Assembly (NCBI GenBank): GCA_021827605.1 | Contig: JAKAVF010000042.1 | Coordinates: 1-32,243 of the forward strand | DNA from: Microcaldota archaeon | GTDB lineage: Archaea; Micrarchaeota; Micrarchaeia; Micrarchaeales; Micrarchaeaceae | Direction of reading: 5' to 3' | DNA length: 32,243 nucleotides | Shown here: positions 4,426-32,243 of the stretch, in pieces | Numbering within the stretch: the stretch's first letter is position 1 | How the letters are laid out: every line of letters begins with the position of its first letter | Position numbers and translations under genes: made by a program | Notes under the pieces: generated by a model | The model's database searches: none | What the model was told of the DNA's origin: nothing | What the model saw: only the letters and a program-made list of their open reading frames with translations

Positions 4426-5475
4426 TCAGCACGGATAGGAGCAGGATAGCACGTACACCCCGCATGCGTTGTGGATGTTATTTATGCTCAGGTAGCTGCT
4501 GTAGACTGTCGAGTAGTTGAGCCCCCCGAAGACCCCCTTTGTCACGGAGCTGACTATCTGGTGCCTTGTGAGGTTCATTGTTACTACCAGCGCAGGCCCT
4601 CCCGTTATCGACGGGGTGTGCGAATAGGTGCTGTATGTTGCAAGCCATACCGATGCGGATGTGCTCCCGAGGGTGTAATTGAGATCGTACGGAACCAGCT
4701 TCGTTATGTTCAGGAACGAGTTCGTCGCGTTGGGCAGGTGGCCATACTTTGTCACATAGGTTGAATTGTAGACGGTTGAGTTGCAGTTGCTCGCCGCGGT
4801 CTCATAGGTCTTCGTGTAATTATTCATAAGCCCGTAGTAGACATCGGTCTTTAGCAGGCTCTGCGCTGCGGAGTAGTTGCCGCTGGTGCCTACGGTTGTG
4901 GTGCCGGCTGTTGTAGTGCCTGTGGTGCTGGTCGTTGTGGCGCTTGTTGTCGATGTTGTCGCGTTTTCCTGTGAAGACGAGCCTACAGGCGACAGAGACG
5001 ACTGGACCATCGTTATCCTTGAAGAGGTCGGCGCAAGAGCAAGCCCCGTCGGTACTGGCGTAACCGTGATCGAGACCGTGTTGTTGCTTATTTTTGTGAG
5101 CAGTAGCTGCATGTCCGCGAAGTTGCCTAACGTGTTGATATCCGTTGCATTGTTTGATACAAGGGATACTTCAAGCGTCGGATTGACGAAGACGGGCAGT
5201 CTCGTCACCGCGACCTTTGCAGTCGATGATGCAAGCGATGAGGTTACGAGGTGCATTGCATATTCATTGCCACCCATCATGAACACCGTTGTCGAGTTCG
5301 TAATCGCAAGGGATGTCGCTCCGGTAATATTTACGATCGAAAGGACACCGATTATGAAGCTGATGGCGAAGTATGCGATGATGATAAGGATTATGAGCCC
5401 TACCGCTGGCAGTATAAACTTCCCGTAGTCCGTCCTCTGCCCCTGGGGTTTTCTTCTCGGCGGGTCTATAGGCAT
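4426..5475 (-). CDS. Membrane-anchored Thr-rich surface protein
   Basis: 349-residue protein of unknown function. A charged N-terminus (MPIDPPRRKPQGQR) is followed by one long hydrophobic helix (about res 22-48) and a mostly extracellular-type chain. A Ser/Thr-rich spacer (about res 168-200, repeated STTSATTTST units) separates two halves, and many NxS/T sites (NYT, NST, NAT, NLT, NYS) suggest N-glycosylation. The C-terminal half carries a few cysteines, including CGVYVLSCSYPC at the end, which may form disulfides. The architecture fits a type II-like anchor with an exposed domain. A TATA box at 5505-5512 serves it, and it is divergent from the response regulator. No named domain was recognised. 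Confidence 0.75.
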   Translation of the reverse strand: MPIDPPRRKPQGQRTDYGKFILPAVGLIILIIIAYFAISFIIGVLSIVNITGATSLAITNSTTVFMMGGNEYAMHLVTSSLASSTAKVAVTRLPVFVNPTLEVSLVSNNATDINTLGNFADMQLLLTKISNNTVSITVTPVPTGLALAPTSSRITMVQSSLSPVGSSSQENATTSTTSATTTSTTGTTTAGTTTVGTSGNYSAAQSLLKTDVYYGLMNNYTKTYETAASNCNSTVYNSTYVTKYGHLPNATNSFLNITKLVPYDLNYTLGSTSASVWLATYSTYSHTPSITGGPALVVTMNLTRHQIVSSVTKGVFGGLNYSTVYSSYLSINNIHNACGVYVLSCSYPC

Positions 5476-5504
5476 GGAATTCTACCTATATCTTCAAGCC
5501 AAGA

Positions 5505-5512
5505 CTTATAAA
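5505..5512 (-). promoter_or_regulatory. TATA box for the surface-protein gene
   Basis: Minus-strand TTTATAAG lies 30-37 nt upstream of ATG 5475. The short spacing suggests a leaderless or nearly leaderless transcript. Confidence 0.5.
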
Positions 5513-5608
5513 CATTTTTGTCAGGGAAGGAATGAAAGTTTACATTCCTCTAATCAAAAATCGGCAAAGCATATTAGCCTTTATGTTGATATTTTAGCGG
5601 TGACCGGC

Positions 5609-6820
5609 ATGGTGGCAAGCGACGATTTCAACGAAGACCTAATGAACATCATCAACGAAAGGCAGCAGATCTCATATGGGGAGCTGAGCGACATCGCGTT
5701 TTCAAGGGGCGTCGCGGAGAAGATGCTTAAGGACTCGCTTTCCGAGTTAGAGAGGGCGAAGAAAATCGCATCAAGAAGCAACGGCGGGATCTTGACATAT
5801 TACCTCCTACAGGGGGAGGACGGGATGAGGAAGGTGCTCATCGTCGAGGACGACAAGAACATCAACAAGCTCATGGCGCTTTCCATCGGGAAGGGGTTTG
5901 ACATAACGCAAATCTACGACGGAGGCGAGGCGATCGCGGCCGTGAGGGAGAAGAGACCGGAACTTGTAATACTGGACCTGATGCTTCCGCACAAGGATGG
6001 CCTTGACCTATGCCAGACCATAAAGACAGACCCTTCGCTCAGGGAAACGGTCGTCATACTGATAAGCGCCATGGATCCGACGAGCAACAGGTTCAAGGGG
6101 ATAAAGTACGGCGCGGATTATTACATAAAGAAGCCGTTCGATCCGAGCGACCTAAGGAGCCTCGTTACCCTTTTCCTTAGGAAGAAGGGAAAGCGCTTCG
6201 ACCCGCTCATAGACCTGCCGGATGAGGAGAGGATATCCAAGCAGATAGAGCACTCGATAAGGCAGAACGAGAAATATGCCATAGGGGAGCTCAAGATTGA
6301 CAATCTGGGCACATACGCGAAGAGGTTCGGCGAGAAGTCGGCGATAGTCCTGCTCAGGCTGGTATCGCAGCTTCTTCAGGATGCGATAAGGAAGCAGCAG
6401 TCAAGCACATTTGTCGGTTTCCTGAACAGCGACGAGTTCATAGTTGCGGGAGCCCACGACAGCGTCGATGCAGTGGTGAAGGAGGTGCAGCAGGAGTTCG
6501 GTGCGGTGCTGCAGTTCGTCCTCCAGGACGCTGGATTCAAGCAGATAAATATAGACGTGGAGGCGCTCTTCGAATCCAAGGAGGCGCCCAAGCTCGCGCT
6601 TGTCTTCACAGAGGTTGACAAGGAGAAGCTGAAGGCGAGGAGGAACGAGGTGCTCAAGAGCAAGGGAGTCTCAGCCACCGCGCAGGAAGGCATAGGCTCA
6701 TACTCATATGACGAACTGCAGAAGATATTCGGCAAGGACGACCTTGATGTAATAATAACAAGGGACGAGAGCGGAGTAAGGCTGCAGGTCGGCAAGAGCG
6801 CCGAAGAGAAGGAGAAGTAA
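5609..6820 (+). CDS. Response regulator: winged helix + REC + degenerate GGDEF
   Basis: 403 residues from ATG 5609, chosen because GGTGA (5599-5603) precedes it by 5 nt; the frame is open further upstream to 5474 but that part is poorly protein-like. Residues 1-70 look like a winged-helix domain (QISYGELSDIAFSRGVAEKML). Residues 73-190 are a REC receiver: acid pair VEDD, phospho-acceptor Asp123 in LDLMLPHKDG, a Ser in the Thr/Ser switch position (LISAMD) and Lys in YIKKPF. Residues 200-300 follow the GGDEF fold pattern (DPLIDLPDEERISKQIEH, then IGELKIDN, then FLNSDEFIVAG), with NSDEF at 273-277 in place of GGDEF, so cyclic-di-GMP synthesis is unlikely. A last domain of about 100 residues is unassigned. 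It probably receives phosphate from the kinase at 696-2975. Confidence 0.88.
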   Translation: MVASDDFNEDLMNIINERQQISYGELSDIAFSRGVAEKMLKDSLSELERAKKIASRSNGGILTYYLLQGEDGMRKVLIVEDDKNINKLMALSIGKGFDITQIYDGGEAIAAVREKRPELVILDLMLPHKDGLDLCQTIKTDPSLRETVVILISAMDPTSNRFKGIKYGADYYIKKPFDPSDLRSLVTLFLRKKGKRFDPLIDLPDEERISKQIEHSIRQNEKYAIGELKIDNLGTYAKRFGEKSAIVLLRLVSQLLQDAIRKQQSSTFVGFLNSDEFIVAGAHDSVDAVVKEVQQEFGAVLQFVLQDAGFKQINIDVEALFESKEAPKLALVFTEVDKEKLKARRNEVLKSKGVSATAQEGIGSYSYDELQKIFGKDDLDVIITRDESGVRLQVGKSAEEKEK

Positions 6821-6854: not shown

Positions 6855-7388
6855 ATGAAGCAGCAGTCAGCTATAGACTTCATGACATCTTACGGCGTAG
6901 CCATGTTGATAGTGGTGATAGCGGCTTACGTAGTTCTCAGGCTTGGCATATTCACCGGGAACGTTGCGCAGCCGGTTTGCACCTCAGCGTCCTCGTTCTC
7001 ATGCGGCGCCCTCTCGCTTTCTACGAACGGGACCGTTACCTTCGTCCTGACGCAGGCTGTCGGAGGCACGATAGACATAGTAGGAGTGGCGTGCTCCAGC
7101 GGAATCAACACGGCAGGCACAGGTCCGGCATATGGAAACATAAACGTGCTGAACTACTCGGATGCGCCGCAGTATTACCCGAGCACTGCCCTACAGAGCG
7201 GCCTGCAGATGTACAGCGGCTCATCGAAGACGATACGGATAGGCTGCTGGGGTCCATTCGGCCAGTCGAAGGAGAACCTCGGCAATTCCTATACCGGATA
7301 CATATGGATCAACTACACCTACGAGGGCCTGCCATCGCACCTGTATACAGTTACAAGGGTCATAGATTTCGCTACGAAAGCGACTTAG
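6855..7388 (+). CDS. Type IV pilin-like protein with class III signal peptide
   Basis: 177-residue exported protein. The N-terminus has the class III signal shape: a short polar leader (MKQQ), SAIDFMTSYG, then a hydrophobic helix (res 14-33). In archaea such leaders are cut by a prepilin peptidase and the helix packs into pilus- or archaellum-like fibres. The remaining domain is beta-rich with paired cysteines (VCTSASSFSCG, GVACSS, IGCWG) and NxT sites. It aligns by eye with the first 150 residues of the protein at 27496-29016, sharing the C..FxCG segment, a GxACxx segment and TGYIWxxY, so the two are paralogues. It follows the response regulator by 34 nt and may be cotranscribed with it. The filament type is not determined. 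Confidence 0.8.
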   Translation: MKQQSAIDFMTSYGVAMLIVVIAAYVVLRLGIFTGNVAQPVCTSASSFSCGALSLSTNGTVTFVLTQAVGGTIDIVGVACSSGINTAGTGPAYGNINVLNYSDAPQYYPSTALQSGLQMYSGSSKTIRIGCWGPFGQSKENLGNSYTGYIWINYTYEGLPSHLYTVTRVIDFATKAT

Positions 7389-11526: not shown

Positions 11527-13422
11527 ATGTCAAATCAAACAGATTATACAAAAATGGTGTCCTTTCCTATGTCGGGAAAAACCAGAACAATAACAGCACA
11601 AATTGTTTCTGAATTAATGGCCATTGCTCCAATAGACGCAATCGAAGCTGGTGTTGTGAAGTACTTCCTTTATAAAAACCACATTAAAAACGTGCAAAAT
11701 TTACTTATAAAGAGTCTCACATCATCTGAAGCAGCAAAGCCAATATTTGACTATTTAGTAGAGAACAACCTAGAATTAGATATCCTAGATGTAGAGAAGC
11801 TCTTCGAACTTCTCATTCCAGAAAAAGATAAGCAATTGAACGGAGCTGTCTATACGCCTTCTTATATCGTTGACTATATAATCAGCATAACAGTAAACAG
11901 AATAGGTTATGTATGCGATCCCGCCTGCGGTTCGGGCGCTTTCCTATTAAGAGTATTAAAAAAGTTCAAGCAAATTGAATCAGATATTCCGTATACAGAA
12001 CTCCTCGAAAAATATGTGTATGGACTTGATATCTTGGATTACGCTATCCGTAGAGCAAAAATAATCTTGAGCCTCTTTTTACTAATTAATGGCGAGGACA
12101 AACCTGAAATCAACTTTAATCTTGTCATCGCGAATAGTCTTAAAGCAAACTGGAAAACCTTCTTCCCAACAATATCCTCCGGCTTTGATTTTATAGTTAG
12201 CAATCCACCATATGTAAGAATCCAGGACCTCTCCACCAGCAATAAAACAGCCTTAGCAAACCGTTGGATTGCAGCAGGAAAAGGCAACTTTAATATATAT
12301 TTTGCCTTCTTTGAATTGGGTTTTAACTTCTTGAACCCCTCCGGAAAGCTTGGTTATATAACACCTAATAACTACTTTACTTCATTATCCGGAGTCAGTC
12401 TACGCTCATATCTATCGGGAAAAGCAGCAATAACAAAAATAGTAAATTTCAACCATTTAAAACTTTTTGAAAATGCCCAAACCTATACGTGCCTGACTTT
12501 CCTAGAGAAATCTTATAAAGAAGACTATTTCGAATATTGCTATGTGGATGACAAAAATCTTCTCAAGAATCTTAGTGGATTAAAATTTAGCAAATACTAT
12601 TTCGCATGGTTAAACAACAAAAAATGGCGTCTCATGCCCGAGAATGATTATCGTAATATAAAAAAGATTGAGACAGCTGGTCTCCCACTAGGTAAAATTT
12701 GTCCAATTAAGGTTGGTATTGCAACTCTGAAAGATACTGTATTTTTTGTAGAAGACCTCGAAGGCGAATATTGTAAGGCATCCGCTAGTGGAAAAGAGTA
12801 CAACGTAGAGAAATCAATAACAAGAAAGGTGGTAAAAATCTCTTCCGTAGACAACGAAGAAGATATTCGTATGGATAAAAGACGAATAATTTTCCCGTAC
12901 GAAAAGATTGGTGGAACTTACAAACTTATACCTGAAACTAAGCTTAAGTTACAGTATCCAAATGCTTATGAATATTTGTTAGCTTCAAAAACGATTCTAG
13001 CCAAAAGAGATAAAGGTAAAAAAAGTTATCCTGCTTGGTATGCATTGGGAAGAACGCAAGGCATGGACTTCAAAGGTCCTCGTTTATATACTCGTACTTT
13101 TTCGCACTATCCGCATTTTATGTTAGATACGGCAGAAGACAACCTTTTCTGCAATGGGTATGCCGTCTTTATTAAAAAACCACAAATGAAGCACGTTAAA
13201 GCCATTCAAAGAATATTAAATTCAGAACTTATGGGTTACTATGTAAAAAGAACCAGCGTTGAGATAGAAGGTGATTATCAGTGCTATCAGAAAAACTTTA
13301 TCGAAAACTTCTCTATTCCTGATTTAACAGAAGCGGATTGGAATTATCTAGACACTGAGTCAGACTCTGCAAAAATAAATGAACGCCTATTGAGAATTTA
13401 TTCCCTCCATTCATTATTTTAA
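11527..13422 (+). CDS. N6-adenine DNA methyltransferase (Eco57I/TaqI-like)
   Basis: 631 residues; start ATG 11527 with GGTGAG 5 nt upstream. The SAM-binding motif I is DPACGSGAFL (about res 137-146) and motif IV is SNPPYVRIQD (about res 225), the NPPY form of amino-methyltransferases acting on adenine. A motif X-like YTPSYIVDYI precedes motif I, so the order is X-I-IV (gamma class). The C-terminal half (about 290-620) fits a target-recognition region, with TRTFSHYPHFMLD and AEDNLFCNGYAVF as in type II and IIG enzymes. No N-terminal nuclease is fused. Its 3' end overlaps that of the putative endonuclease on the other strand by 9 nt. The gene is visibly more AT-rich than the chromosomal genes, a sign of transfer. 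Confidence 0.9.
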   Translation: MSNQTDYTKMVSFPMSGKTRTITAQIVSELMAIAPIDAIEAGVVKYFLYKNHIKNVQNLLIKSLTSSEAAKPIFDYLVENNLELDILDVEKLFELLIPEKDKQLNGAVYTPSYIVDYIISITVNRIGYVCDPACGSGAFLLRVLKKFKQIESDIPYTELLEKYVYGLDILDYAIRRAKIILSLFLLINGEDKPEINFNLVIANSLKANWKTFFPTISSGFDFIVSNPPYVRIQDLSTSNKTALANRWIAAGKGNFNIYFAFFELGFNFLNPSGKLGYITPNNYFTSLSGVSLRSYLSGKAAITKIVNFNHLKLFENAQTYTCLTFLEKSYKEDYFEYCYVDDKNLLKNLSGLKFSKYYFAWLNNKKWRLMPENDYRNIKKIETAGLPLGKICPIKVGIATLKDTVFFVEDLEGEYCKASASGKEYNVEKSITRKVVKISSVDNEEDIRMDKRRIIFPYEKIGGTYKLIPETKLKLQYPNAYEYLLASKTILAKRDKGKKSYPAWYALGRTQGMDFKGPRLYTRTFSHYPHFMLDTAEDNLFCNGYAVFIKKPQMKHVKAIQRILNSELMGYYVKRTSVEIEGDYQCYQKNFIENFSIPDLTEADWNYLDTESDSAKINERLLRIYSLHSLF

Positions 13423-14281: not shown

Positions 14282-14698
14282 TTAGTCCTGCCCAAGTTTA
14301 GCATATCTTTGCTGTTTTAATGATAAAACGTAGATAGGCACACCAAAATTAAATCTTTCCGCTCTCTCCGTACTCCCTTTCAAATACCCATAACCGGTAA
14401 TACCGATAGCAATATCTGGTTTTATCTGAACAATCTTCTGAAAACTCTTGTATTTCACGTTATATTTGTGATCGTATTCGATAGCAACCCTAAACTTACC
14501 TTTCCTAGCGACTAGGTCTATCCTTCCAGACCTACCGCTCTTATCCGTCATAGCGTATATCGGATATTCCTTCGTAGTGTAGAAGCCTGCTTCTCTGAAT
14601 ATCCGCTCTATATCGCTTACAGTGTCGTTATGTTCTTGATATGGGCTAACTTTGATGAGCTTGTAGAGTATTGGTTTCATATCATAAGCTTCGGTCAT
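14282..14698 (-). CDS. Small PD-(D/E)XK-like nuclease
   Basis: 138 residues. A central GRIDLVARKGKFRVAIEYD stretch places Asp61 and Glu74 with the spacing of the PD-(D/E)XK fold, though the usual Lys is Asp76 (E-Y-D); Lys84 and Lys88 in the following helix might substitute. A strand KPDIAIGITGYG follows, as in Holliday-junction-resolvase-like and plasmid nucleases. The start ATG overlaps the stop of the upstream ATPase gene by 4 nt (ATGA), so translation is coupled and the two proteins probably act together. Catalytic activity is inferred only from the motif pattern. Confidence 0.6.
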   Translation of the reverse strand: MTEAYDMKPILYKLIKVSPYQEHNDTVSDIERIFREAGFYTTKEYPIYAMTDKSGRSGRIDLVARKGKFRVAIEYDHKYNVKYKSFQKIVQIKPDIAIGITGYGYLKGSTERAERFNFGVPIYVLSLKQQRYAKLGQD

Positions 14699-16920
14699 AT
14701 ATGCACCAATAGATACTCGTCCGTTTTGCCTTTCCTGTACTGCTTTATCGCGTCAAGTACTTCCTGATTCCAAGAGACCCACGTTAATGGCAGACCGTAT
14801 TTATCTGCTCTATCTCCATGGTCTTGAATCTTGACCTTAGTGGCTGTGGTCTGTATCTCATAGCCACGTCTAGCCTTGTCGTTCCATAGATATTTGCGCC
14901 TATCATCAATTGGATAAGCGACCAAATCGACACAGTCGTAAAGTTCTGTGTCGGTCTTATCTTCTGGCTCAGGCACAACCACGAGCATGAACCTCTTCTG
15001 AAGTTGCCTTATCGTCTCCACCAGTATGCGCTCGTGCAGAGTCGAACCGAGCCTGCTTTTATCGGTTTCGAGAATCCAGCTTGGATCAACCCAGCGAAGA
15101 CCAGCGTCGGTCAATCCAAAGCGGTCGTCGCTTTGCTCTGCAAGCTTTAGCTTCAGCAGAGTCTCGAATATTCCCGGTCTTCCCGGCGAGCCATAAATGG
15201 TATGATTTGCCTTAATCAAACCGGTCTCTTTGATAGAGTTTGTTATATCGACCTTCTTTCTACCTTGGTTGTTGAATATGGCGAGCAATCCGATATACTG
15301 CGTAGGTGTCGGTCTGTCCTTTGGCGGAGGCCAGTGCAGAGTCTTAGGTCGTCTTTCCTCGACCTTCTCTGCCTGCTTGGTGGTGGTCTTTGCCATGTCT
15401 ATTGGCAATTCAGGTTCTTCCAGAACCTTTGGCAGATATGCCTTCTCTGTCCGCTTGACGGCATCAAGCTCCTCTTCGGTTATCTGCCTGACCTTGACGT
15501 AGTCCGCAAACTTCTGGCCTTGCTGCGCTCTAGATTGGTCGAATACGAAACCTTCGCCAATCCCGGCAGTCTCAAGGTATGCGCTCTCGAACTTGCCAAG
15601 GCCGAACACGCTCTTTGCACTGTTCAGGAAGCTTGCGTCGCGATAGTTGTGGATTATCCTAATCGCGCTTGAGTTCATGAAAGGCTTCGGTATGTCCTCC
15701 ATCTGCTGGGTGCTTACCACCATGCCGAAGCCGTACTTCCTGCCGAGCCTTACAATCCTGCTCGGCAGCGACTCAAAGACCTGATCGCCCTGCGTCTGGC
15801 TTTGCAGGACAGCCCAGGCTTCGTCCAGAACCAACAACATTCGTATGTTTTGGTTAAGCTCCGGCTGTTTGTTGAAGAATTCTACTATCCTCTGGAACAC
15901 GGAGTATGCGACCACGCTCTTCTCGTTCTCGTTCAGCCCTGCAAGGCTGATGATATTGTTGCGTGTGAGCATCCCGTTCCAGAATTCTTCAGGCTCCGTG
16001 CCGAAGACACGCTGCACGGTCCTTAGCCTCTGGTCTATCCAGTTGGCGTATTGCCTCTCTTCCTGAGTGGCCTTCCTGTCCTTACGGACCTTGTCTATGT
16101 CCTGCCATAATTCCATTAGCGTGGGCGGCGCATGCCCGGCGTAATGGTCTAGGACGATAGTTCTTATCATGTTTGACTGCAACGGCGTCAGATGCGCGCC
16201 GAACTGGAACAGTTCGGCTATGCTGCTGGCTCTGTCAGCTATGCTCGCATCGCGCAGCATGAACGGATTGATCTTGAACTGCTTGCCGGCCTTCCAGACG
16301 GTAGCGTTGATCTTCTGCGCCCATCCTTCGGATTCGCCGTTCCAGTCTATTATCAGGAAGCGGAGCTTGTACTCAAGCGCAGCCCTGATCAGGAAAGCCC
16401 TGAGAGTGGTGGTTTTCCCAGAACCCGACCCGCCAAGAATTATCGCGTGTGGGTTTGGTTCCTTTGGATAGTCGAGGATGTATTCCGACGTATCCCCCGC
16501 CATGATAGGCTTTGCCTTGTCTCCGTCGTCGTCCCCAACGACGTCTGTGAAGTGCGAGGTCTCGACGTAGTGCTTGTAGCGAGTGCCGAGCCTGATGCCC
16601 TTGTCATCGGACTTCTTGACTTTGAGTTCGCCGTAGTAGTTCCCTCTTAGCAGGAGCAGGAATCCGGGAACTATGAAGAAACCGGCTATGAACCAAAGTC
16701 CAAGTGCTCCCCAGACACCGAGCGGCGCCCAGAAGAGGATCAGGAAGATTGCTGGCGCTACGAATAGATAGCCGACCCAGAAAAGAGCGGTGTAAACGAG
16801 GTGTCTCTGAAAGTAGTGAGTGGAATGCCATCGCGCGTGTTCAGGGTTTATCCTGTTGCGCAGGTCTTGGATGGCATTGTTCACGTTGATTTTGATATCG
16901 ATGCTCGATTTGCCGCTCAT
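14695..16920 (-). CDS. Membrane-anchored VirB4/HerA-like ATPase with nuclease-like tail
   Basis: 741 residues. Two or three hydrophobic helices lie at about res 40-95 (ALFWVGYLFVAPAIFLILFW, then a second cluster). The motor follows: Walker A GGSGSGKTTTL (about 163-173), Walker B LLVLDEAWAVL (about 358-368) and QQMEDIPKPFMNSSAIRI downstream, as in conjugation and HerA/FtsK-type DNA-pumping ATPases. After the motor there is a winged-helix-like part (about 550-620: QGRKKVDITNSIKETGLI) and a last domain with VDLVAYP (Asp665) and GYEIQTT (Glu688, Gln690) that resembles a PD-(D/E)XK site. Start: ATG 16920; TTG 16929 is in frame, and an AT-rich TATA-like box at 16948-16956 fits either. Coupled to the small nuclease downstream. 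Probably moves or processes element DNA at the membrane. Confidence 0.82.
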   Translation of the reverse strand: MSGKSSIDIKINVNNAIQDLRNRINPEHARWHSTHYFQRHLVYTALFWVGYLFVAPAIFLILFWAPLGVWGALGLWFIAGFFIVPGFLLLLRGNYYGELKVKKSDDKGIRLGTRYKHYVETSHFTDVVGDDDGDKAKPIMAGDTSEYILDYPKEPNPHAIILGGSGSGKTTTLRAFLIRAALEYKLRFLIIDWNGESEGWAQKINATVWKAGKQFKINPFMLRDASIADRASSIAELFQFGAHLTPLQSNMIRTIVLDHYAGHAPPTLMELWQDIDKVRKDRKATQEERQYANWIDQRLRTVQRVFGTEPEEFWNGMLTRNNIISLAGLNENEKSVVAYSVFQRIVEFFNKQPELNQNIRMLLVLDEAWAVLQSQTQGDQVFESLPSRIVRLGRKYGFGMVVSTQQMEDIPKPFMNSSAIRIIHNYRDASFLNSAKSVFGLGKFESAYLETAGIGEGFVFDQSRAQQGQKFADYVKVRQITEEELDAVKRTEKAYLPKVLEEPELPIDMAKTTTKQAEKVEERRPKTLHWPPPKDRPTPTQYIGLLAIFNNQGRKKVDITNSIKETGLIKANHTIYGSPGRPGIFETLLKLKLAEQSDDRFGLTDAGLRWVDPSWILETDKSRLGSTLHERILVETIRQLQKRFMLVVVPEPEDKTDTELYDCVDLVAYPIDDRRKYLWNDKARRGYEIQTTATKVKIQDHGDRADKYGLPLTWVSWNQEVLDAIKQYRKGKTDEYLLVHI

Positions 16921-16929
16921 CCCCCTCAA

Positions 16930-23935: not shown

Positions 23936-26377
23936 ATGTACAATGCGGATGCGAACGCGGACAGGTGGAAAAAGCTCTGGATAGAGGAGAAGCTGTTCGC
24001 ATTCGACAGAAAGGACCAGAAGAACAGGCTGTTCGTAATAGACACGCCTCCTCCGAACACTACCGGAGGGCTGCACATGGGCCACGTGTTCTGGACATGC
24101 TACATAGATGCTATCGCCAGGTACAACAAGATGAAGGGACTCAACATCCTCTATCCTGTTGGATGGGACGAGCACGGTTTCCCTACTGAGATCGAGACCG
24201 AGAAGAAATACGGCAGGAACCTAAGCAGGGAAGAGTTTTACAAGAGATGCGTCGAGGTCTCTGCGAACAACAAGGACGACATGAAGAAATGGATGCTCAA
24301 GCTTGGCGCAGTCTTCGACCAGAGCCTCGAATACAGGACGACAGACAAGGACTATACGAGGAAGGTGCAGCTATCGCTGCTGATGATGTACAACGACGGC
24401 CTTCTCTACAGAGGCGATCACCCGATAGAGTGGTGCGTGAGGTGCGGCAGCGGCATCTCCAGGGAGCAAGCCAACGAGAAGGAGATGGAAACGGATCTGA
24501 ATTACGTCGATTTCAGGATTGCTGGGGAGAAGGGCAAGGACTCTACCATCACGATCGCGACAACGAGACCTGAGCTGATGCACGCGGCTGTCGCGCTCGC
24601 CGTCAATCCGAAAGATAGGAGATATTCCAAGCTGATAGGGAAGACCGCAGAGGTCCCAATGTTCGGCACGCAGATAGAGATAATAGGCGACGACATGGTA
24701 GACAAGGACTTCGGGACCGGCGCAGAGATGATCTGCACATTCGGCGACAAGCGCGACATCAATATGTATTATACCCACAAGCTGAAGCTCGTTCCAGCAA
24801 TGGATTCCAAGGGGATTCTTCAGAACGCGCAGAAGTTCAACGGCATCCATGTGCTGAAGGCCAGGGAGCAGGTCCTCGCTGAGTTGAAGAAGGAGGGAGC
24901 GTTGAAGAAGCAGGAGAAGATAAAACACGTGGTGAAGGTCCACGACAGGTGCGAGACGCCAATCGAGCTGATCTCGACCACGCAGTGGTTCCTTAAGACG
25001 AAGGATTACGCCGATCAGATAAAGAGGACGGCCCGCGAGATAAAGTGGGTTCCGGAGTCGACGCGGCAGAGGCTTGAGGACTGGGCTAACTACATCGAAT
25101 GGGACTGGGCGATAACAAGGAACAGGGCGTATGCTACCCCGATGCCGTTCTGGTACTGCGAGAAGTGCAACCACATCCTTCCTCCTAGGAAGGAGGATCT
25201 TCCCCTGGACCCGACATCGAAGAAGCCCTACGAAGCAAGGTGCCAGAAGTGCGGGGGCATCATGATAGGCACGAAGGAGACTCTCGACGGATGGATAGAC
25301 ACATCGATAACCTCTATGGTGATAGCCGGATGGCCGGATGACAAAAAGCTTCTCGAAAGGGCGTTTCCCGCGGCTATGAGGATACAGGGCACGGACATAG
25401 TCAGGACCTGGGCTTTCTACACGATATACAGGACGCAGGCTCTCACAGGCAACAAGCCATGGGAGAAGATACTCGTCCACGGAATGGTGCTCGGAGAAGA
25501 TGGGAGGGAGATGCACAAGAGCTGGGGCAACGGCATCTACCCAGAGGAGCTTATGAAGAAGTACCCCGTGGATGCGATAAGGCTGTGGGTTGCGCTGAGC
25601 GGAGGAATCGGGAAGGACAAGCCATTCTCTTACGCAGAGGTTGACTATGCGAGGAGCTTCGTGATAAAGCTCTACAACACCGCAAACTTCGTGAAGCTCG
25701 CGCTCGAGCAGGGGAGCGTGCCAAAGGAGGAGCCCCACAAACACCTCAACGTTTTTGATATATGGATACTAAACAGGTTGAACGATGTGGTAAAAGGCGT
25801 CACGGAGGCGTACGACGGATTCATGCTCAACGATGCGATGAACCAGGCGATAAACTTCTACTGGCACGAGTTCGCAGACTATTATATAGAGAACGTCAAG
25901 CACAGGGTGTACTCAAAGGAGAAGAGCGACGAGAAGACAAAGAGCGCCGCGCTTTTCACCCTCAAGTACGTCCTCGACACCGCGCTGCGGCTTCTCGCGC
26001 CGGTAATCCCGTTCGTTACGGAGGACATAAACGAGATGTTCAGCAAGAAAAGCATCTTCACAGAGAGGATGCCGGAGCACGTGCCCCTCGGCGCCGACGG
26101 CAACTACGTGATAAATGGCCTCATCCAGAAGAGCCCGATTGTCGAGGATGCGTCGAACATAGGCACATTTCTTAACCTGGTGATAGCTGAGGTGCGCAAG
26201 GAAAAGGCAAAAGGCAGGGTCGCCCTCAACGCCGAGATAACATCAATTAATATAAATGTTCCTGATGAATATATTAGCGCGGTCCTGGCCTCTCAGGATG
26301 AGCTTAAAAACATACTGAAAGCGAAGGAGATAACCGCGAAAAAAGGGAAGGAGTTTTCTGTATCGATAAAGATATAA
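23936..26377 (+). CDS. valS: Valyl-tRNA synthetase
   Basis: 813 residues; charges tRNA-Val. HIGH-type motif HMGH at res 47-50 after PPPNTTGG, and a KMSKS-type motif MHKSWGN at 526-532, which departs from the usual KMSKS. The editing (CP1) domain has TTRPELMHA and FGTGAEMICTFGDK, the latter typical of archaeal ValRS and not of IleRS. A Cys4-type knuckle (CEKCNHI and CQKCGG) is present. The C-terminal anticodon-binding part is compact and no long coiled-coil tail is seen. Start: ATG 23936; TTG 23930 is in frame two codons earlier. A long opposite-strand open frame over this gene is a shadow. Confidence 0.93.
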   Translation: MYNADANADRWKKLWIEEKLFAFDRKDQKNRLFVIDTPPPNTTGGLHMGHVFWTCYIDAIARYNKMKGLNILYPVGWDEHGFPTEIETEKKYGRNLSREEFYKRCVEVSANNKDDMKKWMLKLGAVFDQSLEYRTTDKDYTRKVQLSLLMMYNDGLLYRGDHPIEWCVRCGSGISREQANEKEMETDLNYVDFRIAGEKGKDSTITIATTRPELMHAAVALAVNPKDRRYSKLIGKTAEVPMFGTQIEIIGDDMVDKDFGTGAEMICTFGDKRDINMYYTHKLKLVPAMDSKGILQNAQKFNGIHVLKAREQVLAELKKEGALKKQEKIKHVVKVHDRCETPIELISTTQWFLKTKDYADQIKRTAREIKWVPESTRQRLEDWANYIEWDWAITRNRAYATPMPFWYCEKCNHILPPRKEDLPLDPTSKKPYEARCQKCGGIMIGTKETLDGWIDTSITSMVIAGWPDDKKLLERAFPAAMRIQGTDIVRTWAFYTIYRTQALTGNKPWEKILVHGMVLGEDGREMHKSWGNGIYPEELMKKYPVDAIRLWVALSGGIGKDKPFSYAEVDYARSFVIKLYNTANFVKLALEQGSVPKEEPHKHLNVFDIWILNRLNDVVKGVTEAYDGFMLNDAMNQAINFYWHEFADYYIENVKHRVYSKEKSDEKTKSAALFTLKYVLDTALRLLAPVIPFVTEDINEMFSKKSIFTERMPEHVPLGADGNYVINGLIQKSPIVEDASNIGTFLNLVIAEVRKEKAKGRVALNAEITSININVPDEYISAVLASQDELKNILKAKEITAKKGKEFSVSIKI

Positions 26378-26408
26378 GGACTTTTTTCTTCGTAAATCGA
26401 GTGTTCTA

Positions 26409-26879
26409 ATGGCACGAATGCACAGCAAGAAGCACGGAAAGGCGAAGTCAAGGAAGCCTGTAGTGGAGCTTGGAGCCGTGCCTACCGGCTCTCCGATATC
26501 CAAGGGAGAGATAGAAGAGCTCATCGTGAAGTACACGAAGCAGGGGATGAGCCCGGCGCAGATAGGGGAGAAGCTGAAGAGGGAGCACTCGGTTCCCTAC
26601 GTAAGGCAATACACAGGCAAAAGGCTTGTCCAGATACTGAAGGAGAAGAAGATGTCGGGGCAGATTCCGGCTGACCTCATGGACCTCATGAGGAAGGCGG
26701 TTATAATGCACGCACACATGGAGAAGAACAAGCAGGACAAGCACAATGGACTTAGGCTGAAGAGGGTTGAATCGAAGATATGGAGGCTTAGCAAGTATTA
26801 CATTCGCGAGGGGGAGCTGCCAGGCACCTGGAAGTATGATCCAAAGCAGGCAGAGCTCCTGATAAAAGGAAAAGCTTGA
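26409..26879 (+). CDS. rps15: 30S ribosomal protein uS15
   Basis: 156 residues, usual archaeal length. The N-terminal extension MARMHSKKHGKAKSRKP is the archaeal/eukaryotic form, followed by the helical uS15 core (LIVKYTKQGMSPAQIGEKL, NGLRLKRVESKIWRLSKYY). Binds 16S rRNA in the small subunit platform. It follows ValRS by 31 nt and precedes eS1 by 15 nt; the three are probably cotranscribed. Confidence 0.96.
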   Translation: MARMHSKKHGKAKSRKPVVELGAVPTGSPISKGEIEELIVKYTKQGMSPAQIGEKLKREHSVPYVRQYTGKRLVQILKEKKMSGQIPADLMDLMRKAVIMHAHMEKNKQDKHNGLRLKRVESKIWRLSKYYIREGELPGTWKYDPKQAELLIKGKA

Positions 26880-26894
26880 GCATGGAGTGAATAG

Positions 26895-27461
26895 ATGGCA
26901 ATACAGAGAGGAGTTGACAAGTGGAAGATGAAGCACTGGTTCACCGTCAGGGCCCCAAATATGTTCAATGACGCGCAGGTGGGCGAGATGCCAGCCAACG
27001 ACGAGAAAGCAGCCATAGGGAGGAACGTAACCGTAAGCCTCGACTACCTGACGAAGAACCCATCGCACGCCTATACGAACGTAGTTCTTAAGATCACGGA
27101 GGTGAAGGGGGACGCAGCGCAGACAAAGCTTGTCAGGATAGAGCTGCTCCAGAGCTACCTCAGGTCCTTCGTGAGGAGGTACAGGAGCGTCTCGAGCGCT
27201 GTGATTCCAGTCACATCAAGGGACGGAGCCTCGGCGGTCGTGAAGCTGATAGCCGTGACCCGCTCAAGGGCTGCGCACACGAAGATTTCCGGTGTAAGGA
27301 AGGAGATGTCCGACTTCACGAAGAGCTACTTTGCGGAGAACGGCATTGATAGCATAATCGGCGCGATAATAGAGGGCAAGTTCCAGGCAGAGCTCGGGGC
27401 GAAGCTGGGCCACATAACAGACCTCAACAAAGTGGAAGTGAGGAAGATCGAGCTGAAGTAA
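26895..27461 (+). CDS. rps3ae: 30S ribosomal protein eS1 (S3Ae)
   Basis: 188 residues. The order VDKWKMKHWFTVRAPNMFN, GRNVTVSLDYLTKN and the RRYRSVSSAVIPVTSRDG segment are those of archaeal S3Ae, a small-subunit protein near the mRNA exit. GGAGTGA lies 4-5 nt before ATG 26895. Linked to uS15 as in many archaea. Confidence 0.95.
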   Translation: MAIQRGVDKWKMKHWFTVRAPNMFNDAQVGEMPANDEKAAIGRNVTVSLDYLTKNPSHAYTNVVLKITEVKGDAAQTKLVRIELLQSYLRSFVRRYRSVSSAVIPVTSRDGASAVVKLIAVTRSRAAHTKISGVRKEMSDFTKSYFAENGIDSIIGAIIEGKFQAELGAKLGHITDLNKVEVRKIELK

Positions 27462-27465
27462 GACT

Positions 27466-27474
27466 ATTTTTATA
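27466..27474 (+). promoter_or_regulatory. TATA box for the pilin-propeller gene
   Basis: ATTTTTATA-type AT-rich box ending about 22 nt before ATG 27496, without a ribosome binding site, suggesting a leaderless transcript. Confidence 0.4.
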
Positions 27475-27495
27475 GCTTCCTTTCGCATTAATCAC

Positions 27496-29016
27496 ATGGC
27501 TTTCCGGAGGGCGCAGAGCGCAATCGAGTACCTTATGACGTATGGCTGGGCCATACTCATCATCGTTGTTGTGCTGGCAGTACTGTTCCTCTCCAATATT
27601 TTCAACAGCTCCGTCTACATATCAAACAGCTGCGCATCTTCGCAGGGCTTCGTCTGCGGCAGTCCGGTGCTCAACCAGTCCGGATATCTCAGCGTGACCG
27701 TCAGCAGATACGGGCAGGCGCTGAATGTAACCGGGCTCGCGTGCGTCGACAACACATCCGCACCTTCTGCCTTCATCCAAATTCCAACTACGGAGCTAAA
27801 GGAGAGCTATACCTATACTCTCGTATTCCAGTGCACGCTCCCTAAGAGCGCCATAGGAAGCGGATTCACCGGATACATCTGGATGCGGTACAGCGAGGCA
27901 GGCCAGTCTGGTCTTGTCAGCGAGATAGGGAGGGTATCCACCAGCGTCGAAACCAGCACACCCATTACCTCGTCGACGACTACAACGTCAACAACATCGA
28001 CCACATCCACCACATCCTCCACATCCTCCACATCAACAACATCAACCATTGCACCCTTAACGTACGTGTACTGCTTTGGCGGGAACGACAACGATGGCTA
28101 CCATGAGGCCGCGCAAACCGCATCGATTTATCCAAATGGCAGCATGACCTGGAACAGCACAGAGTTTAGCCTACCATTTCCTGTAAATGGGGGTGGTGAT
28201 TGCGCCATGTACGGCGGTTATGCCTATTGCATGGGTCAGTCCTCCTCAAACACGGTGGCTTCTGCTCCAGTCAGCGGCAATGCTGTTGGGCATTGGACGC
28301 TGCAGGCAAGTACGCTTCCGGCTGGATTTATAGAACAGGGCGATGGTTCGTGTTCAGCCCTGAATGGATACATCTATTGCACCGCAAGGAATTCTACCAG
28401 CAGCTCAACTAATGCGATACTCGCGGCACCGATCTCGAGCGGAACCGTAGGTGCCTGGACCATTGCAGCAAATTACTCATACCCCGGCAGGCTCTCAGCT
28501 GCGGGCGGCACATGTTTCGCATACCAAGGCTATTTTTACTGCCTTGGAGTTGGCAATTCTGGCAATACTGCATACTATGCGCAAATCCTATCTCCGACTA
28601 CCATAGGCAGTTGGACCTCTACAAATGGCGATCCGAATACGAACGGGAACTTCCAGTCGCCATGCACAGTGTACAACGGCTATGTATTCTGCATAGGGGA
28701 CACGCCCTACTCGTCACAGTCTAATTACGTATACTCCGCTCCATTGCTTAATCCTGGAATAGGTACATGGACGCAGCAGACATCGATACCAGTCCCAATA
28801 ACATTCCAGGCCCCGCCATGCGGCGCGACAAACAACAATCTCTACTGCTTCGGCAATGACGGAGCTGTGGAAAATGCCATATATGCTGCGCCGCTTTTAG
28901 GCGGCACCGTTGGGAGCTGGAGCCTTGTAAGTAACGCTCCTCTTAACCTAGTAGGGGCATCGTGTATAGGCAGCGGCTTTAGCGGGGGATACCTGGGTTT
29001 CGGCGCCCCGAACTAG
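27496..29016 (+). CDS. Pilin-like protein with Thr-rich stalk and propeller-like repeats
   Basis: 506 residues. The start has a class III signal (MAFRRAQSAIEYLMTYGWA, then a hydrophobic helix to about res 33), as in pilins processed by a prepilin peptidase. Residues 38-155 are paralogous to the protein at 6855-7388. A Ser/Thr stalk (about 155-187) leads to a C-terminal region with about six repeats of roughly 50 residues, each with a C...(N/G)GYxYC(x)G unit: CAMYGGYAYCMG, CSALNGYIYCTA, CFAYQGYFYCLG, CTVYNGYVFCIG, CGATNNNLYCFG, plus TYVYCFGG at the start. Each unit is followed by an APxxxGxxGxW strand, which resembles Kelch-type beta-propeller blades with an added disulfide. Likely a fibre-tip or surface adhesin; ligand unknown. 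Confidence 0.8.
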   Translation: MAFRRAQSAIEYLMTYGWAILIIVVVLAVLFLSNIFNSSVYISNSCASSQGFVCGSPVLNQSGYLSVTVSRYGQALNVTGLACVDNTSAPSAFIQIPTTELKESYTYTLVFQCTLPKSAIGSGFTGYIWMRYSEAGQSGLVSEIGRVSTSVETSTPITSSTTTTSTTSTTSTTSSTSSTSTTSTIAPLTYVYCFGGNDNDGYHEAAQTASIYPNGSMTWNSTEFSLPFPVNGGGDCAMYGGYAYCMGQSSSNTVASAPVSGNAVGHWTLQASTLPAGFIEQGDGSCSALNGYIYCTARNSTSSSTNAILAAPISSGTVGAWTIAANYSYPGRLSAAGGTCFAYQGYFYCLGVGNSGNTAYYAQILSPTTIGSWTSTNGDPNTNGNFQSPCTVYNGYVFCIGDTPYSSQSNYVYSAPLLNPGIGTWTQQTSIPVPITFQAPPCGATNNNLYCFGNDGAVENAIYAAPLLGGTVGSWSLVSNAPLNLVGASCIGSGFSGGYLGFGAPN

Positions 29017-29033
29017 AATCTTGCAAAGACTTC

Positions 29034-29372
29034 TTAACTTAGCCCTATCAGGATCACGCCTACAAATATTACGGCGACCCCAACCCATCTTAGTGGTGGA
29101 ATGTTCTCTAGAAGTATGAAAGCCGCGAATAGAGTAGCGAATATGTAGCTCAGTCCACCAATCCCGTATGCCCAGCTGAGGTGGACCCTGCTCAGCACAA
29201 CAAAGTAGAAAACGGTCGAGGCTGCATAGGCGCCAAGCCCTATGAGGATGCCGGAAACGAAAAGCGCGGGAGACGACGCGTTGTTGAGTCCGAGCTTGAA
29301 GAGGAGCTGCCCTACGGCCGCGGTAAAAGTGGAGACGAGGAGAAGCATCACGTTGTTCATTCTTTCGCTCAA
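29034..29372 (-). CDS. SMR/EamA-like four-helix transporter, subunit 1
   Basis: 112 residues from TTG 29372, chosen because GGTGAC lies 3 nt before it; ATG 29390 and ATG 29360 are alternatives. Four hydrophobic helices, with VGQLLFKLGL in helix 1, and a last helix VGVAVIFVGVILIGL, as in small multidrug resistance and half-length EamA transporters. SMR proteins are often heterodimers of two similar subunits, and a near-equal-length partner lies 24 nt upstream. Substrate unknown; lipid-linked sugar flipping or drug export are both known in the superfamily. Confidence 0.78.
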   Translation of the reverse strand: MSERMNNVMLLLVSTFTAAVGQLLFKLGLNNASSPALFVSGILIGLGAYAASTVFYFVVLSRVHLSWAYGIGGLSYIFATLFAAFILLENIPPLRWVGVAVIFVGVILIGLS

Positions 29373-29396
29373 GTTGTCACCATAAACCATTCAATT

Positions 29397-29753
29397 TCAA
29401 TAAGTGCTAGCCACCACGACAATGCCGATGAATATTACCAGGACGCCTAATATCCTGATCGCGGGAATCTTTTCCTTCAGCCAGAAGTGCGATATCAGTG
29501 TTATAAATATGAAAGTGCTTGCGAACGTGGGATAAACGATCGAGAGCGGCGCTGAGGATAGCGCATAGAGATATATCGCAAGCGCGACGAACACCATTCC
29601 CAATCCGGTAAGTATACGCCGGTTCCTGATGAGTTTCAGCACCTCCCCTTTCTTTTCTAGCCTGCTTCCGAGGGCTTTCTTGAACAGAAGCTGCGCCAGC
29701 GAGGTTATCAACGCGGCGAAAAGTGTTAAAAAGATGACTAAATATATATTCAA
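29397..29753 (-). CDS. SMR/EamA-like four-helix transporter, subunit 2
   Basis: 118 residues from TTG 29753; the longer open frame (to 29861) reads poorly and would overlap the divergent gene. The start gives LNIYLVIFLTLFAALITSL with AQLLFKKALG in helix 1, aligned with VGQLLFKLGL of its partner, then a positive loop (RLEKKGEVLKLIRNRR) and three more helices. A GGTG core 4-5 nt upstream of the TTG supports it. Together with the 29034 gene it probably forms a heterodimeric exporter. Confidence 0.75.
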   Translation of the reverse strand: MNIYLVIFLTLFAALITSLAQLLFKKALGSRLEKKGEVLKLIRNRRILTGLGMVFVALAIYLYALSSAPLSIVYPTFASTFIFITLISHFWLKEKIPAIRILGVLVIFIGIVVVASTY

Positions 29754-29772
29754 GGGGAACACCGGTGGTAAT

Positions 29773-30033
29773 GTGGAAAACCAGATTGAAGTAATACTCT
29801 CGTTAACTATAATAATATTAGCGATACTCGCAATTGTAGTGTACCTGTATTCCGGCGCCAATGCGGCCTTCTATGGGATATTTGTAGTAGCCCTGGTTAT
29901 CATGTTCTACACCTGGAGAAGGACCTCCATGTCGCCGTTGCCCGCATCACATGCTCCGGAGGTGCGAAGGAGGAGGAGCGTCCCGAGAAGAAAGAGGACA
30001 GGGAAAAGCGCAGGAAGGAAAGCAAGGGCCTGA
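29773..30033 (+). CDS. Small two-helix membrane protein with Arg/Lys-rich tail
   Basis: 86 residues from GTG 29773 with GGTGGT 4 nt upstream; ATG 29734 (MTKYIFKG) is in frame but would overlap the divergent transporter start. Two hydrophobic helices (VILSLTIIILAILAIVVYLY and YGIFVVALVIMFYTW) are followed by a strongly basic C-terminus (RRRRSVPRRKRTGKSAGRKARA) that could contact nucleic acid or membrane lipid. An AT-rich TATATATT stretch (29742-29749) about 25-30 nt upstream may be its promoter. Function unknown. Confidence 0.55.
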   Translation: MENQIEVILSLTIIILAILAIVVYLYSGANAAFYGIFVVALVIMFYTWRRTSMSPLPASHAPEVRRRRSVPRRKRTGKSAGRKARA

Positions 30034-30050
30034 TTCCCGCCCGCCGATAG

Positions 30051-32243
30051 ATGATGTCCGTGAACACACTAATCATAGCAGAGAAGCCAAGCGTGGCAAA
30101 TAGGATAGCCAGCGCTCTCGGCAATGGAAAGGAGCAGAGAAAGGCGGGGAGGGACAAGATAAGCTACTACGAGATAGACACAAGCACGGGAACGGTCTAC
30201 GTCGCAGCTGCTGTTGGACACCTATTCACTATAAGGCAGTCTGACAGCGAGAGAGGCTATCCTGTCCTCAATGTAGAGTGGGCTCCATCTTACGAGGTAG
30301 GGAAGAAATCCGAGCATACGAAGGACTATCTTGACACGCTGAAGGATATAGCGAAGAAATGCGACAGGTTCATCAATGCGTGCGACTTTGACATAGAGGG
30401 CACGGTGATAGGGACAAACATAATCAGGGAGGTGGACAAGAAGAGCCTCAAGGATTCAGCCATGAGGATGAAGTTTTCCACCACCACAACCCAGGACCTG
30501 CGCGAGTCATACGGGCACCTGATGCCGCTCGACATGAGCAACTTCTACGCTGGCGAGGCCAGGCACATGCTGGACTGGCTCTGGGGCATAAACCTCAGCA
30601 GGGCGCTGACCAGCGCAGTCTACGGCGCGAGCATGAGGCAGATGCTGAGCATAGGGAGGGTGCAGGGCCCTGCGCTTGCGATAGTGGCTGAGAGGGAAAA
30701 GGAGATAGCGAAGTTCAAGCCAGAGCCGTTCTGGAGGATAATAGCGCTTATAAACAGTGTAGAGTTCCTCAACACGAAAGGGGACATCTTCGACAAGAAG
30801 GTCGCAAATGACGCTTTCGAAGAGTCGAAGGCCAAGAGGGAAGCGGCTGTAGTGGAGGACATAGAGGTGAAGGAGCAGCAGACCGCTCCGTATCCTCCAT
30901 TCGACCTCACGTCCCTGCAGATAGAGGCGAGCAGGGCGCTGCATCTCGACCCGTCGGTCACACTGGCTCTTGCGCAGAGCCTTTATGAGAAGGCTTACAT
31001 TTCATATCCGAGAACCTCGTCGCAGAAGCTTCCGGCGGCGCTCGGGCTTCCACGGATAATATCAGACATATCAAAGAATCCGGCCTATTCGCAGCTTGCT
31101 GGCAGGCTGGTTTCAGGAAAGAGGTACACGCCACACGAAGGGGCGAAGACCGACGAGGCGCACCCGGCGATCTTCCCGACCGGAGACATGCCAAGCGGCC
31201 TTGCTGCACAGGAGGCGAGGCTGTACGACATGATAGTCAGGCGTTTCCTTGCCTGCTTCGCAGAGTTCGCCATTGTTGGAAGAACAAAGGTCACTGTGGC
31301 CATCGGCGGCGAGAAGTACTCCGCGTCCGGCGCGACAATACTGAAGCCGGGATGGTTGGAGTTCTACACATACGCAAAGATCGACGAGAAGATGCTACCA
31401 GATTTCAAGAAAGGGGCAAGGGTCTCGGTTTCTGACGTGCAGATGCAGGACCTTGAGACGCAGCCGCCGAGAAGGTACACAAAGGCGGGTCTCATCTCGG
31501 AGCTTGAGAAGAGGAACGTTGGCACGAAGGCTACGCGCGCACAGGTCATAGACACCCTTTTCAAGAGGAGGTATGTTGAGGGAGCGACAAACATAATCGT
31601 CACGAACTTCGGGATGAGCGTCTACGACACGCTGGCGGAGAACGCTAGCATGATTGTCGAGGTCGACACTACGAGACAGCTTGAAGAGGACATGGAGAAG
31701 ATATCGCAGAACAAGATAAAGGAAGAGGACGTTATTGAGGAGGGGAAGAGGATGCTTCTCGATGCGCTCAAGCAGTTCGACAAGAACAAGGAGCAGATCG
31801 CCACAAACATGAGGAAAGGCCTTCGGGAAAGCAGCATACTCGGAAAGTGCCCCGTCGATGGCGGAGACCTGCTTGTGAGGAGGTCGAGGGCTGGCAAGCA
31901 GTTCGTCGCTTGCGGGAACTACCCTAAGTGCACCAACACTTATTCTCTTCCGCAGAACGCGCTGATACTCCCTACCGGAAGGACGTGCGAATACTGCCAT
32001 ACCCCGTTCATAAAGGTGATCAGGAAAGGAAGGCGGCCTTTCGAGATGGACCTTGATCCAAAGTGCATCACCAAGAAGGACTGGGCAGGCTACGGCGAGG
32101 AGGCGCCTGCTAAGGCAGTATCGGCAAAGCCGGAAGAGCCAACTGCACCGCAACCGGTGATTCATCAGCAGAAGAAGCAGCAGGCAAAGCCAAAAGCGAA
32201 GCCAAAAGCGAAGAAGAAGCCAGCAAGGAAGAAAAAGAAGAGC
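30051..32243 (+). CDS. topA: Type IA DNA topoisomerase (runs off the edge)
   Basis: 731 codons open to the right edge. The N-terminal Toprim starts with LIIAEKPSVANRIASALG and has ACDFDIEGTVIG (acidic residues for Mg2+). The catalytic Tyr319 lies in AYISYPRTSSQKL. SIGRVQGPALAIV and NVGTKATRAQVIDTLFKR are conserved core segments. C-terminal zinc-type clusters are at CPVDGG...CGNYPKC (from res 600) and CEYCH (from res 646). The tail (res 690-731) is Lys/Ala/Pro-rich and unfinished. No helicase part is fused, so it is not reverse gyrase. It relaxes negative supercoils. Start ATG 30051, or 30054; no clear binding site. Confidence 0.93.
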   Translation, partial: MMSVNTLIIAEKPSVANRIASALGNGKEQRKAGRDKISYYEIDTSTGTVYVAAAVGHLFTIRQSDSERGYPVLNVEWAPSYEVGKKSEHTKDYLDTLKDIAKKCDRFINACDFDIEGTVIGTNIIREVDKKSLKDSAMRMKFSTTTTQDLRESYGHLMPLDMSNFYAGEARHMLDWLWGINLSRALTSAVYGASMRQMLSIGRVQGPALAIVAEREKEIAKFKPEPFWRIIALINSVEFLNTKGDIFDKKVANDAFEESKAKREAAVVEDIEVKEQQTAPYPPFDLTSLQIEASRALHLDPSVTLALAQSLYEKAYISYPRTSSQKLPAALGLPRIISDISKNPAYSQLAGRLVSGKRYTPHEGAKTDEAHPAIFPTGDMPSGLAAQEARLYDMIVRRFLACFAEFAIVGRTKVTVAIGGEKYSASGATILKPGWLEFYTYAKIDEKMLPDFKKGARVSVSDVQMQDLETQPPRRYTKAGLISELEKRNVGTKATRAQVIDTLFKRRYVEGATNIIVTNFGMSVYDTLAENASMIVEVDTTRQLEEDMEKISQNKIKEEDVIEEGKRMLLDALKQFDKNKEQIATNMRKGLRESSILGKCPVDGGDLLVRRSRAGKQFVACGNYPKCTNTYSLPQNALILPTGRTCEYCHTPFIKVIRKGRRPFEMDLDPKCITKKDWAGYGEEAPAKAVSAKPEEPTAPQPVIHQQKKQQAKPKAKPKAKKKPARKKKKS

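Follow-up and report, generated by a model that had tools for sequence, protein, structure and literature searches.

Modular pilins are established in bacteria, as illustrated by PilB and PilC of S. sanguinis, which carry a vWA and a lectin module, respectively (PMC8179133, PMC9934059). Type IV pili also present beta-propellers through the tip adhesins PilY1 and PilC1, although PilY1 is not itself a pilin (PMC8179133). In the ultrasmall and host-dependent Saccharibacteria TM7x, the minor pilin PilX2 bears a C-terminal beta-propeller, and its deletion reduced the share of host cells bound from about 10.6% to 4.6% (PMC12206443). In archaea, diverse unrecognised DPANN pilins were predicted earlier (PMC6393860), and the micrarchaeon Mia14 has been described with kelch/YVTN surface proteins, proposed to act in cell contact, and with an expansion of LamG proteins, some of them linked to pilus loci (PMC5498576).

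Here, we describe a gene of a Micrarchaeota archaeon carried by contig JAKAVF010000042.1 (assembly GCA_021827605.1), whose 32,243 nucleotides were analyzed as a whole and are hereafter called the window. As in modular type IV pilins, a bulky functional module is grafted C-terminal to a small pilin module, and LamG/ConA-type modules occur in both; the differences reside in an anchor that such a model does not recognise and in the stalk and Cys-paired kelch head. The survey of modular pilins deals with the bacterial IPR012902 motif, and its text mentions neither archaea nor kelch (PMC8179133). Likewise, PilX2 differs in being a bacterial protein with a seven-bladed RCC1 propeller, and the article reporting it mentions neither disulfide nor cysteine (PMC12206443). 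The Mia14 propellers, from the same phylum, are fused to CARDB-like modules, pilin fusion and head exchange not being described in the available sections of that study (PMC5498576). Across the open-licence literature, we found no account of archaeal pilins that bear a kelch head or exchange their heads. The protein is an archaeal, kelch variant of the propeller-bearing pilins, with probable in-place head exchange.

Gene layout and the pilin-like anchor

The 506-residue open reading frame on which the original prediction was based is present, and is organized as follows, together with two genes used below for comparison:

27496-29016, forward strand: complete gene of 506 aa, encoding a pilin-like anchor, a Ser/Thr stalk and a predicted kelch head (ORF and translation)
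27496-27513, forward strand: short basic leader MAFRRA preceding a conserved Q (sequence), with a putative cleavage site
27514-27603, forward strand: hydrophobic helix, residues 7-36 (helix 3-32 and 9-36 predicted by two models; anchor profile A4)
27649-27942, forward strand: strands of a small beta-domain, residues 52-149 (model of residues 1-150, pLDDT 71.8)
27946-28056, forward strand: Ser/Thr stalk, residues 151-187 (composition; model)
28057-28971, forward strand: predicted six-bladed kelch propeller head, residues 188-492 (repeats, profile search, model, structure matches)
26895-27461, forward strand: ribosomal S3Ae gene, upstream neighbour, conserved at the sister-species (G008) locus (94% protein identity)
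6855-7388, forward strand: headless pilin-like paralogue (ORF; sequence comparison)

Regarding the anchor, the proposed paralogy between the N-terminal part and the stand-alone protein at 6855-7388 holds for residues 1-150, as a remote relationship (27% identity over 169 aa, E 6.6e-14, four Cys in common), nearer paralogues being encoded elsewhere in the genome (best, 58% over 144 aa). Four Cys (46, 54, 83 and 113) are conserved in the anchor and, across 16 paralogues, Q7-S8-A9 is invariant and E11 nearly so. Type IV pilins are recognized by a basic leader, a Glu five residues into the mature protein and about 20 hydrophobic residues. The anchor has these N-terminal features, with MAFRRA followed by QSAIEYLMTYGWAILIIVVVLAVLF and a predicted helix. 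Its model combines this helix with beta-strands; the fold matches are unspecific beta-sandwiches, among which archaeal filaments are few, one being the archaeal pilus 8fk7 (Z 9.0), and Foldseek gave no match at E 0.001 or better. None of the Pfam, NCBIfam and PDB sequence models identifies the anchor as a pilin, and a search of Pfam alone, at E up to 10, assigned it to no family of the IPR012902 type. The protein would hence work like a modular pilin while not being filed as a member.

The anchor profile recognizes 23 places in the genome, and the family is present in all 41 genomes considered (this one and 40 relatives) with 8-42 copies each. The genome also encodes one prepilin peptidase and two secretion ATPases, one having two weak platform-protein matches beside it while five tandem headless anchors abut the gene of the other. 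By motif, predicted fold type and genomic company, the anchor is pilin-like, as originally suspected, and it may undergo prepilin cleavage and assembly into a filament. The Thr stalk that had been noticed is equally apparent, 18 Thr and 12 Ser being found among its 37 residues, and residues 151-183 have pLDDT values below 50 in the model.

The gene starts 35 bases downstream of the ribosomal S3Ae gene and is faced by an EamA-type gene pair, and no pilus machinery gene adjoins it. The EamA-type pair (29034-29861, reverse strand) consists of two ORFs of 118 and 154 aa in one frame with in-frame stops between them, which are probably two half-size transporter genes since the sister species also has two pieces. 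Elsewhere in the window, a response regulator gene (5474-6820, forward strand), whose C-terminal stretch is weakly GGDEF-like (E 1.8e-4, below the cut-off), directly precedes the headless pilin at 6855. The window also contains genes for a histidine kinase with PAS domains (669-2975), an Eco57I-type methylase (11527-13422) and a HerA/TraG-like ATPase with AAA_10 and DUF87 matches, possibly conjugation-like (14695-16929, reverse strand).

The predicted kelch head and its cysteine pairs

Used alone, the head sequence retrieved no match in Pfam, NCBIfam or the PDB. Profile A1, built from 16 heads, retrieved six-bladed kelch chains from the PDB, including the designed SAKe6 (E 2.2e-15) and KLHL12 (E 3.3e-13); Pfam kelch models match 10 of these 16 heads, and no family the window's own. 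The propeller of about six repeats originally proposed is also what structure prediction returns. In the AlphaFold model of the protein (mean pLDDT 65.5, pTM 0.57, five sequences), the head, with its six repeats and 12 Cys, forms a six-bladed ring whose top match is KLHL17 (Z 24.3, 3.2 A over 268 residues, model range 187-494), followed by the six-bladed kelch domains of SAKe6BC and KLHL12 (both Z 24.2); Foldseek agrees (KLHL12, E 1.5e-8). Kelch repeats are characterized by a double Gly after strand b and by spaced Tyr and Trp. In the blade profile, the two Gly are found in 426 of 510 and 345 of 511 blades and the Trp in 502 of 505. It is thus well supported, at the level of models, that the head is a six-bladed kelch propeller with four-stranded blades arranged in a ring; with six repeats of kelch type, it does not fit the seven-bladed RCC1 propeller of TM7x PilX2. 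The fold is shared over the whole head with KLHL12, KLHL17, Keap1 and SAKe6 (Z 23-24), but unlike them the head has a Cys pair per blade with a split ring-closing pair, is pilin-borne and is predicted to be extracellular.

The original prediction of a conserved Cys pair in each repeat stands for five in-line pairs, the sixth being split between the first and the last strands:

28072-28074, forward strand: C193, first half of the predicted ring-closing pair, first strand (model; masked census)
28201-28230, forward strand: hairpin with C236/C245 (model; blade profile)
28351-28380, forward strand: hairpin with C286/C295 (model; blade profile)
28513-28542, forward strand: hairpin with C340/C349 (sequence; model)
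28663-28692, forward strand: hairpin with C390/C399 (model; blade profile)
28819-28848, forward strand: hairpin with C442/C451 (sequence; model)
28963-28965, forward strand: C490, second half of the predicted ring-closing pair, last strand (model; masked census)

In the model, the two Cys of each in-line pair are equidistant from the turn of the hairpin joining strands a and b. Such equidistant positions form the non-hydrogen-bonded site where cross-strand disulfides are made. When the head was shuffled 100,000 times, five C-x8-C pairs arose once; as the pattern is moreover found again in 89 related heads, a chance repeat was rejected. These 89 unique heads, from the window, the rest of the genome, its relatives and three further related records, constitute a census from which two entries were removed as duplicates, L054 of L049 and L024 of the window's gene. 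Blades were located with a profile of 62 blades chosen for having Cys, which were masked, and which was searched against masked proteins; as the nine-residue spacing is partly built into this profile, it was taken from the masked census, where it holds for 444 of 454 pairs. Among 426 internal hairpins, 418 have both Cys, five neither, three the second only and none the first only, 24 census matches having no Cys column. The Cys vanish in pairs, and a protein with free Cys was therefore not favoured.

First hairpins behave differently, 36 being complete, 47 half and one devoid of Cys. A half-hairpin opens 46 of the single-ring heads whose C-terminus is complete; in 40 of these, a single Cys follows the last hairpin, at a distance of 35-49 residues, and the remaining six carry additional Cys in the tail. 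As to the three internal hairpins that retain the second Cys alone, they belong to giant multi-propeller proteins (L072, L094 and L095) and may mark the start of a new ring. A 12-Cys head of the same kind, with six complete hairpins, is found in three relatives, two of them in Nitrososphaerota records and the third in a record from an unclassified archaeon; its ends accordingly fall at another strand. Altogether, the Cys are placed for bonding in the model, and placement and co-occurrence fit disulfides within the blades. Neither of the findings named beforehand as refuting the original prediction, a fold other than a propeller or Cys misplaced for bonding, was obtained. We infer six cross-strand disulfides in the head; among these, C193-C490 would make the ring covalently closed. 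A VKOR gene and one STT3-type match are present in the genome.

The blades also suggest how the head would be presented. Loop length varies far more between the GG and YY motifs than at the c-d turn (sd 2.84 vs 0.56 in the blade profile), and, in both strand layouts, the a-b and c-d turns are on the side where the head begins and ends. In KLHL and Keap1 domains, the opposite side is the ligand side. Since the ends are on the constant side and the loops vary on the other, the stalk would attach at the former and the variable-loop side would face outward.

Turnover of heads on conserved anchors

The locus was compared with its counterpart in G008, a close sister species whose S3Ae protein is 94% identical. 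One segment stands apart:

28046-29032, forward strand: segment without DNA match to G008, between two conserved flanks (blastn)

DNA similarity extends over 25898-28045 (85.5%) and 29033-31492 (82%), with no match in between. It is lost at codon 184, where the stalk ends, and reappears 17 bases beyond the stop codon. At the protein level, identity to G008 is 90% for residues 1-150, 53% for the stalk and about 39% for the head.

A sister species with a different head at the same spot suggests that recognition heads are traded on a fixed anchor. The two heads might instead be orthologues that diverged fast in place, as both are 12-Cys kelch propellers and a tree with them as sisters is not rejected (p-AU 0.31). 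We judge this rather unlikely, given the fall from 90% identity in the anchor to 39% in the head with sharp edges at the stalk and the stop codon, the difference in third-position GC (0.70 in the anchor, 0.545 in the head) and the rank of the window's head, only 47th when the G008 head is the query. In a preliminary 76-row tree, the window's head is placed beside L104 with a support of 90, apart from the syntenic G008 head. Because the sister-head tree is not rejected, exchange at this locus is likely rather than proved.

Two other loci show replacement of unrelated heads, which also speaks against divergence in place. At locus C19, the anchor gene has an NHL-type head and G008 a kelch head in the same place, the DNA being 82% identical on both sides and breaking at the stalk and just past the stop. 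At locus C3, a DUF2341 head corresponds to an unrelated domain in G008. Heads have been replaced at both loci. Seven syntenic head-bearing pairs could be compared, those lacking matching flanks or truncated at a contig end having been excluded: two are unrelated, three are 31-35% identical by BLASTP (for one of them, C44:4469, the upstream flank alone being comparable), one is 51% and one, a LamG pilin, 88% identical. Headless anchors are at least 75% identical to G008 in their C-terminal part wherever comparable.

The turnover evidence comes from one species pair and one further case, with two counter-cases in another pair, G010/G011 having been excluded as a second close pair because these genomes are too incomplete. 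In the further case (L040/L084), which counts for a turnover rule, DNA similarity is lost in the head beside an 83% flank. The counter-cases are plain-helix heads (L077/L080 and L085/L086) across which DNA similarity is kept; like the LamG pilin at 88%, they count against a general rule.

Distribution and proposed function

Kelch heads are not restricted to pilins. Among the 89 heads, a plain N-terminal membrane helix bears 46, pilin anchors bear 23 and neither is present in three, while 17 have an open N-terminus; with most heads of known N-terminus on a plain helix, the head needs no pilus. Conversely, the anchors of this genome carry DUF2341, NHL/lactonase-type, LamG and kelch heads. The suggested search for the repeat in other Micrarchaeota was productive: heads occur in 59 of 196 genomes sampled from the phylum (E 1e-10), all within two families of one order, and at E 0.001 they were detected in 49 genomes out of 100, a relative being found in Candidatus Micrarchaeota archaeon REEA68. 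In a collection of genome contigs, the window's head as query retrieved nothing and a relative's head yielded five loci, including a bacterial kelch that is poor in Cys.

Several variants are worth recording. In three related species, a kelch head on a plain membrane helix is followed by a Cys-rich tail with about six Cys after the ring (L044, L076 and L098, from G011, G013 and G010). Giant proteins of 1300-2850 aa (L072, L094, L095 and L103, from G023 and G074) contain at least two consecutive rings, their recognised blades numbering 11-17. In the window's own genome (contigs C31 and C44), three anchors (L017, L019 and L020) share a Cys-rich head type that is unnamed and lacks a clear Pfam match, each protein having 14-15 Cys; the G008 counterpart of this type is only 31-35% identical where compared. 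In G011, the anchor is borne by about a dozen ORFs of around 300 aa spread over several contigs, the size seen for LamG-bearing pilins.

The explanation we favour, with moderate confidence, is that of a surface-displayed recognition protein. The N-terminus would insert in the membrane like a prepilin, be cleaved before Q7, and either be built into a type IV filament or be kept in the membrane as a pilin. Beyond it, the six-bladed propeller would be held out by the beta-domain and the Ser/Thr stalk, its blades being pinned by six cross-strand disulfides; as C193-C490 would close the ring, the propeller should not unravel outside the cell. With the head ends on the face of short fixed turns, the variable-loop face should point away from the cell and might recognise a ligand carried by another cell or by a surface. 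In this view, the anchor would act as a conserved socket, while the head region would turn over by exchange at the stalk. The missing adjoining pilus genes, the lack of pilin-model matches, the unspecific fold matches, the plain-helix attachment of most related heads with a known N-terminus and the moderate model confidence (mean pLDDT 65.5 and 71.8) count against this explanation. The protein may be part of a pilus-like fibre, sit at its tip and contact a host, as first envisaged, and an adhesive role, with a partner cell as the presumed target, is plausible.

Alternatively, the head could bind environmental polysaccharides, mineral surfaces or the cell's own coat, making the protein a general attachment or biofilm factor. 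The LamG and DUF2341 heads on sibling anchors fit carbohydrate binding generally, and in S. sanguinis a ConA-like module enables PilC to bind glycans (PMC9934059). Nevertheless, fast head turnover on a fixed anchor suggests a changing target, less expected for a constant surface, and we consider this alternative improbable. Still less probable is a turnover driven by viruses using the heads as receptors, with adhesion secondary: whole-domain exchange of exposed heads on conserved anchors is what receptor escape would produce, yet one scan of viral contigs revealed no relative of the head, and escape is not exclusive with adhesion. Finally, kelch domains being known in sugar oxidases and epimerases, a secreted enzyme was considered and appears very unlikely, for although one of the 16 heads matches the N-acetylneuraminate epimerase Pfam family (E 2.7e-5), no catalytic motif is seen and no conserved polar residue stands out beyond the repeat motif in the blade profile.

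Extending the recognition reading to the phylum, we tentatively suggest that Micrarchaeota may possess a socket-and-cassette system, in which pilin anchors, numbering 8-42 genes per genome of about 1 Mb, would receive heads of unrelated folds. Strains would exchange these heads in place by recombination with edges at the Thr-coding stalk and at the stop codon, and the head present at each locus would set the partner cell; this proposal is more doubtful than the function of the single protein.

How ultrasmall host-dependent archaea choose and hold their partner is an open question, to which the present analysis contributes a family of genes, a head whose outward face can be predicted, and loci at which the head accounts for most of the difference between sister species. 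Comparing heads could hence serve to test partner choice, and the change of heads in place is the part most worth following. The locus also points to a pilin-with-propeller design common to ultrasmall bacteria and archaea.
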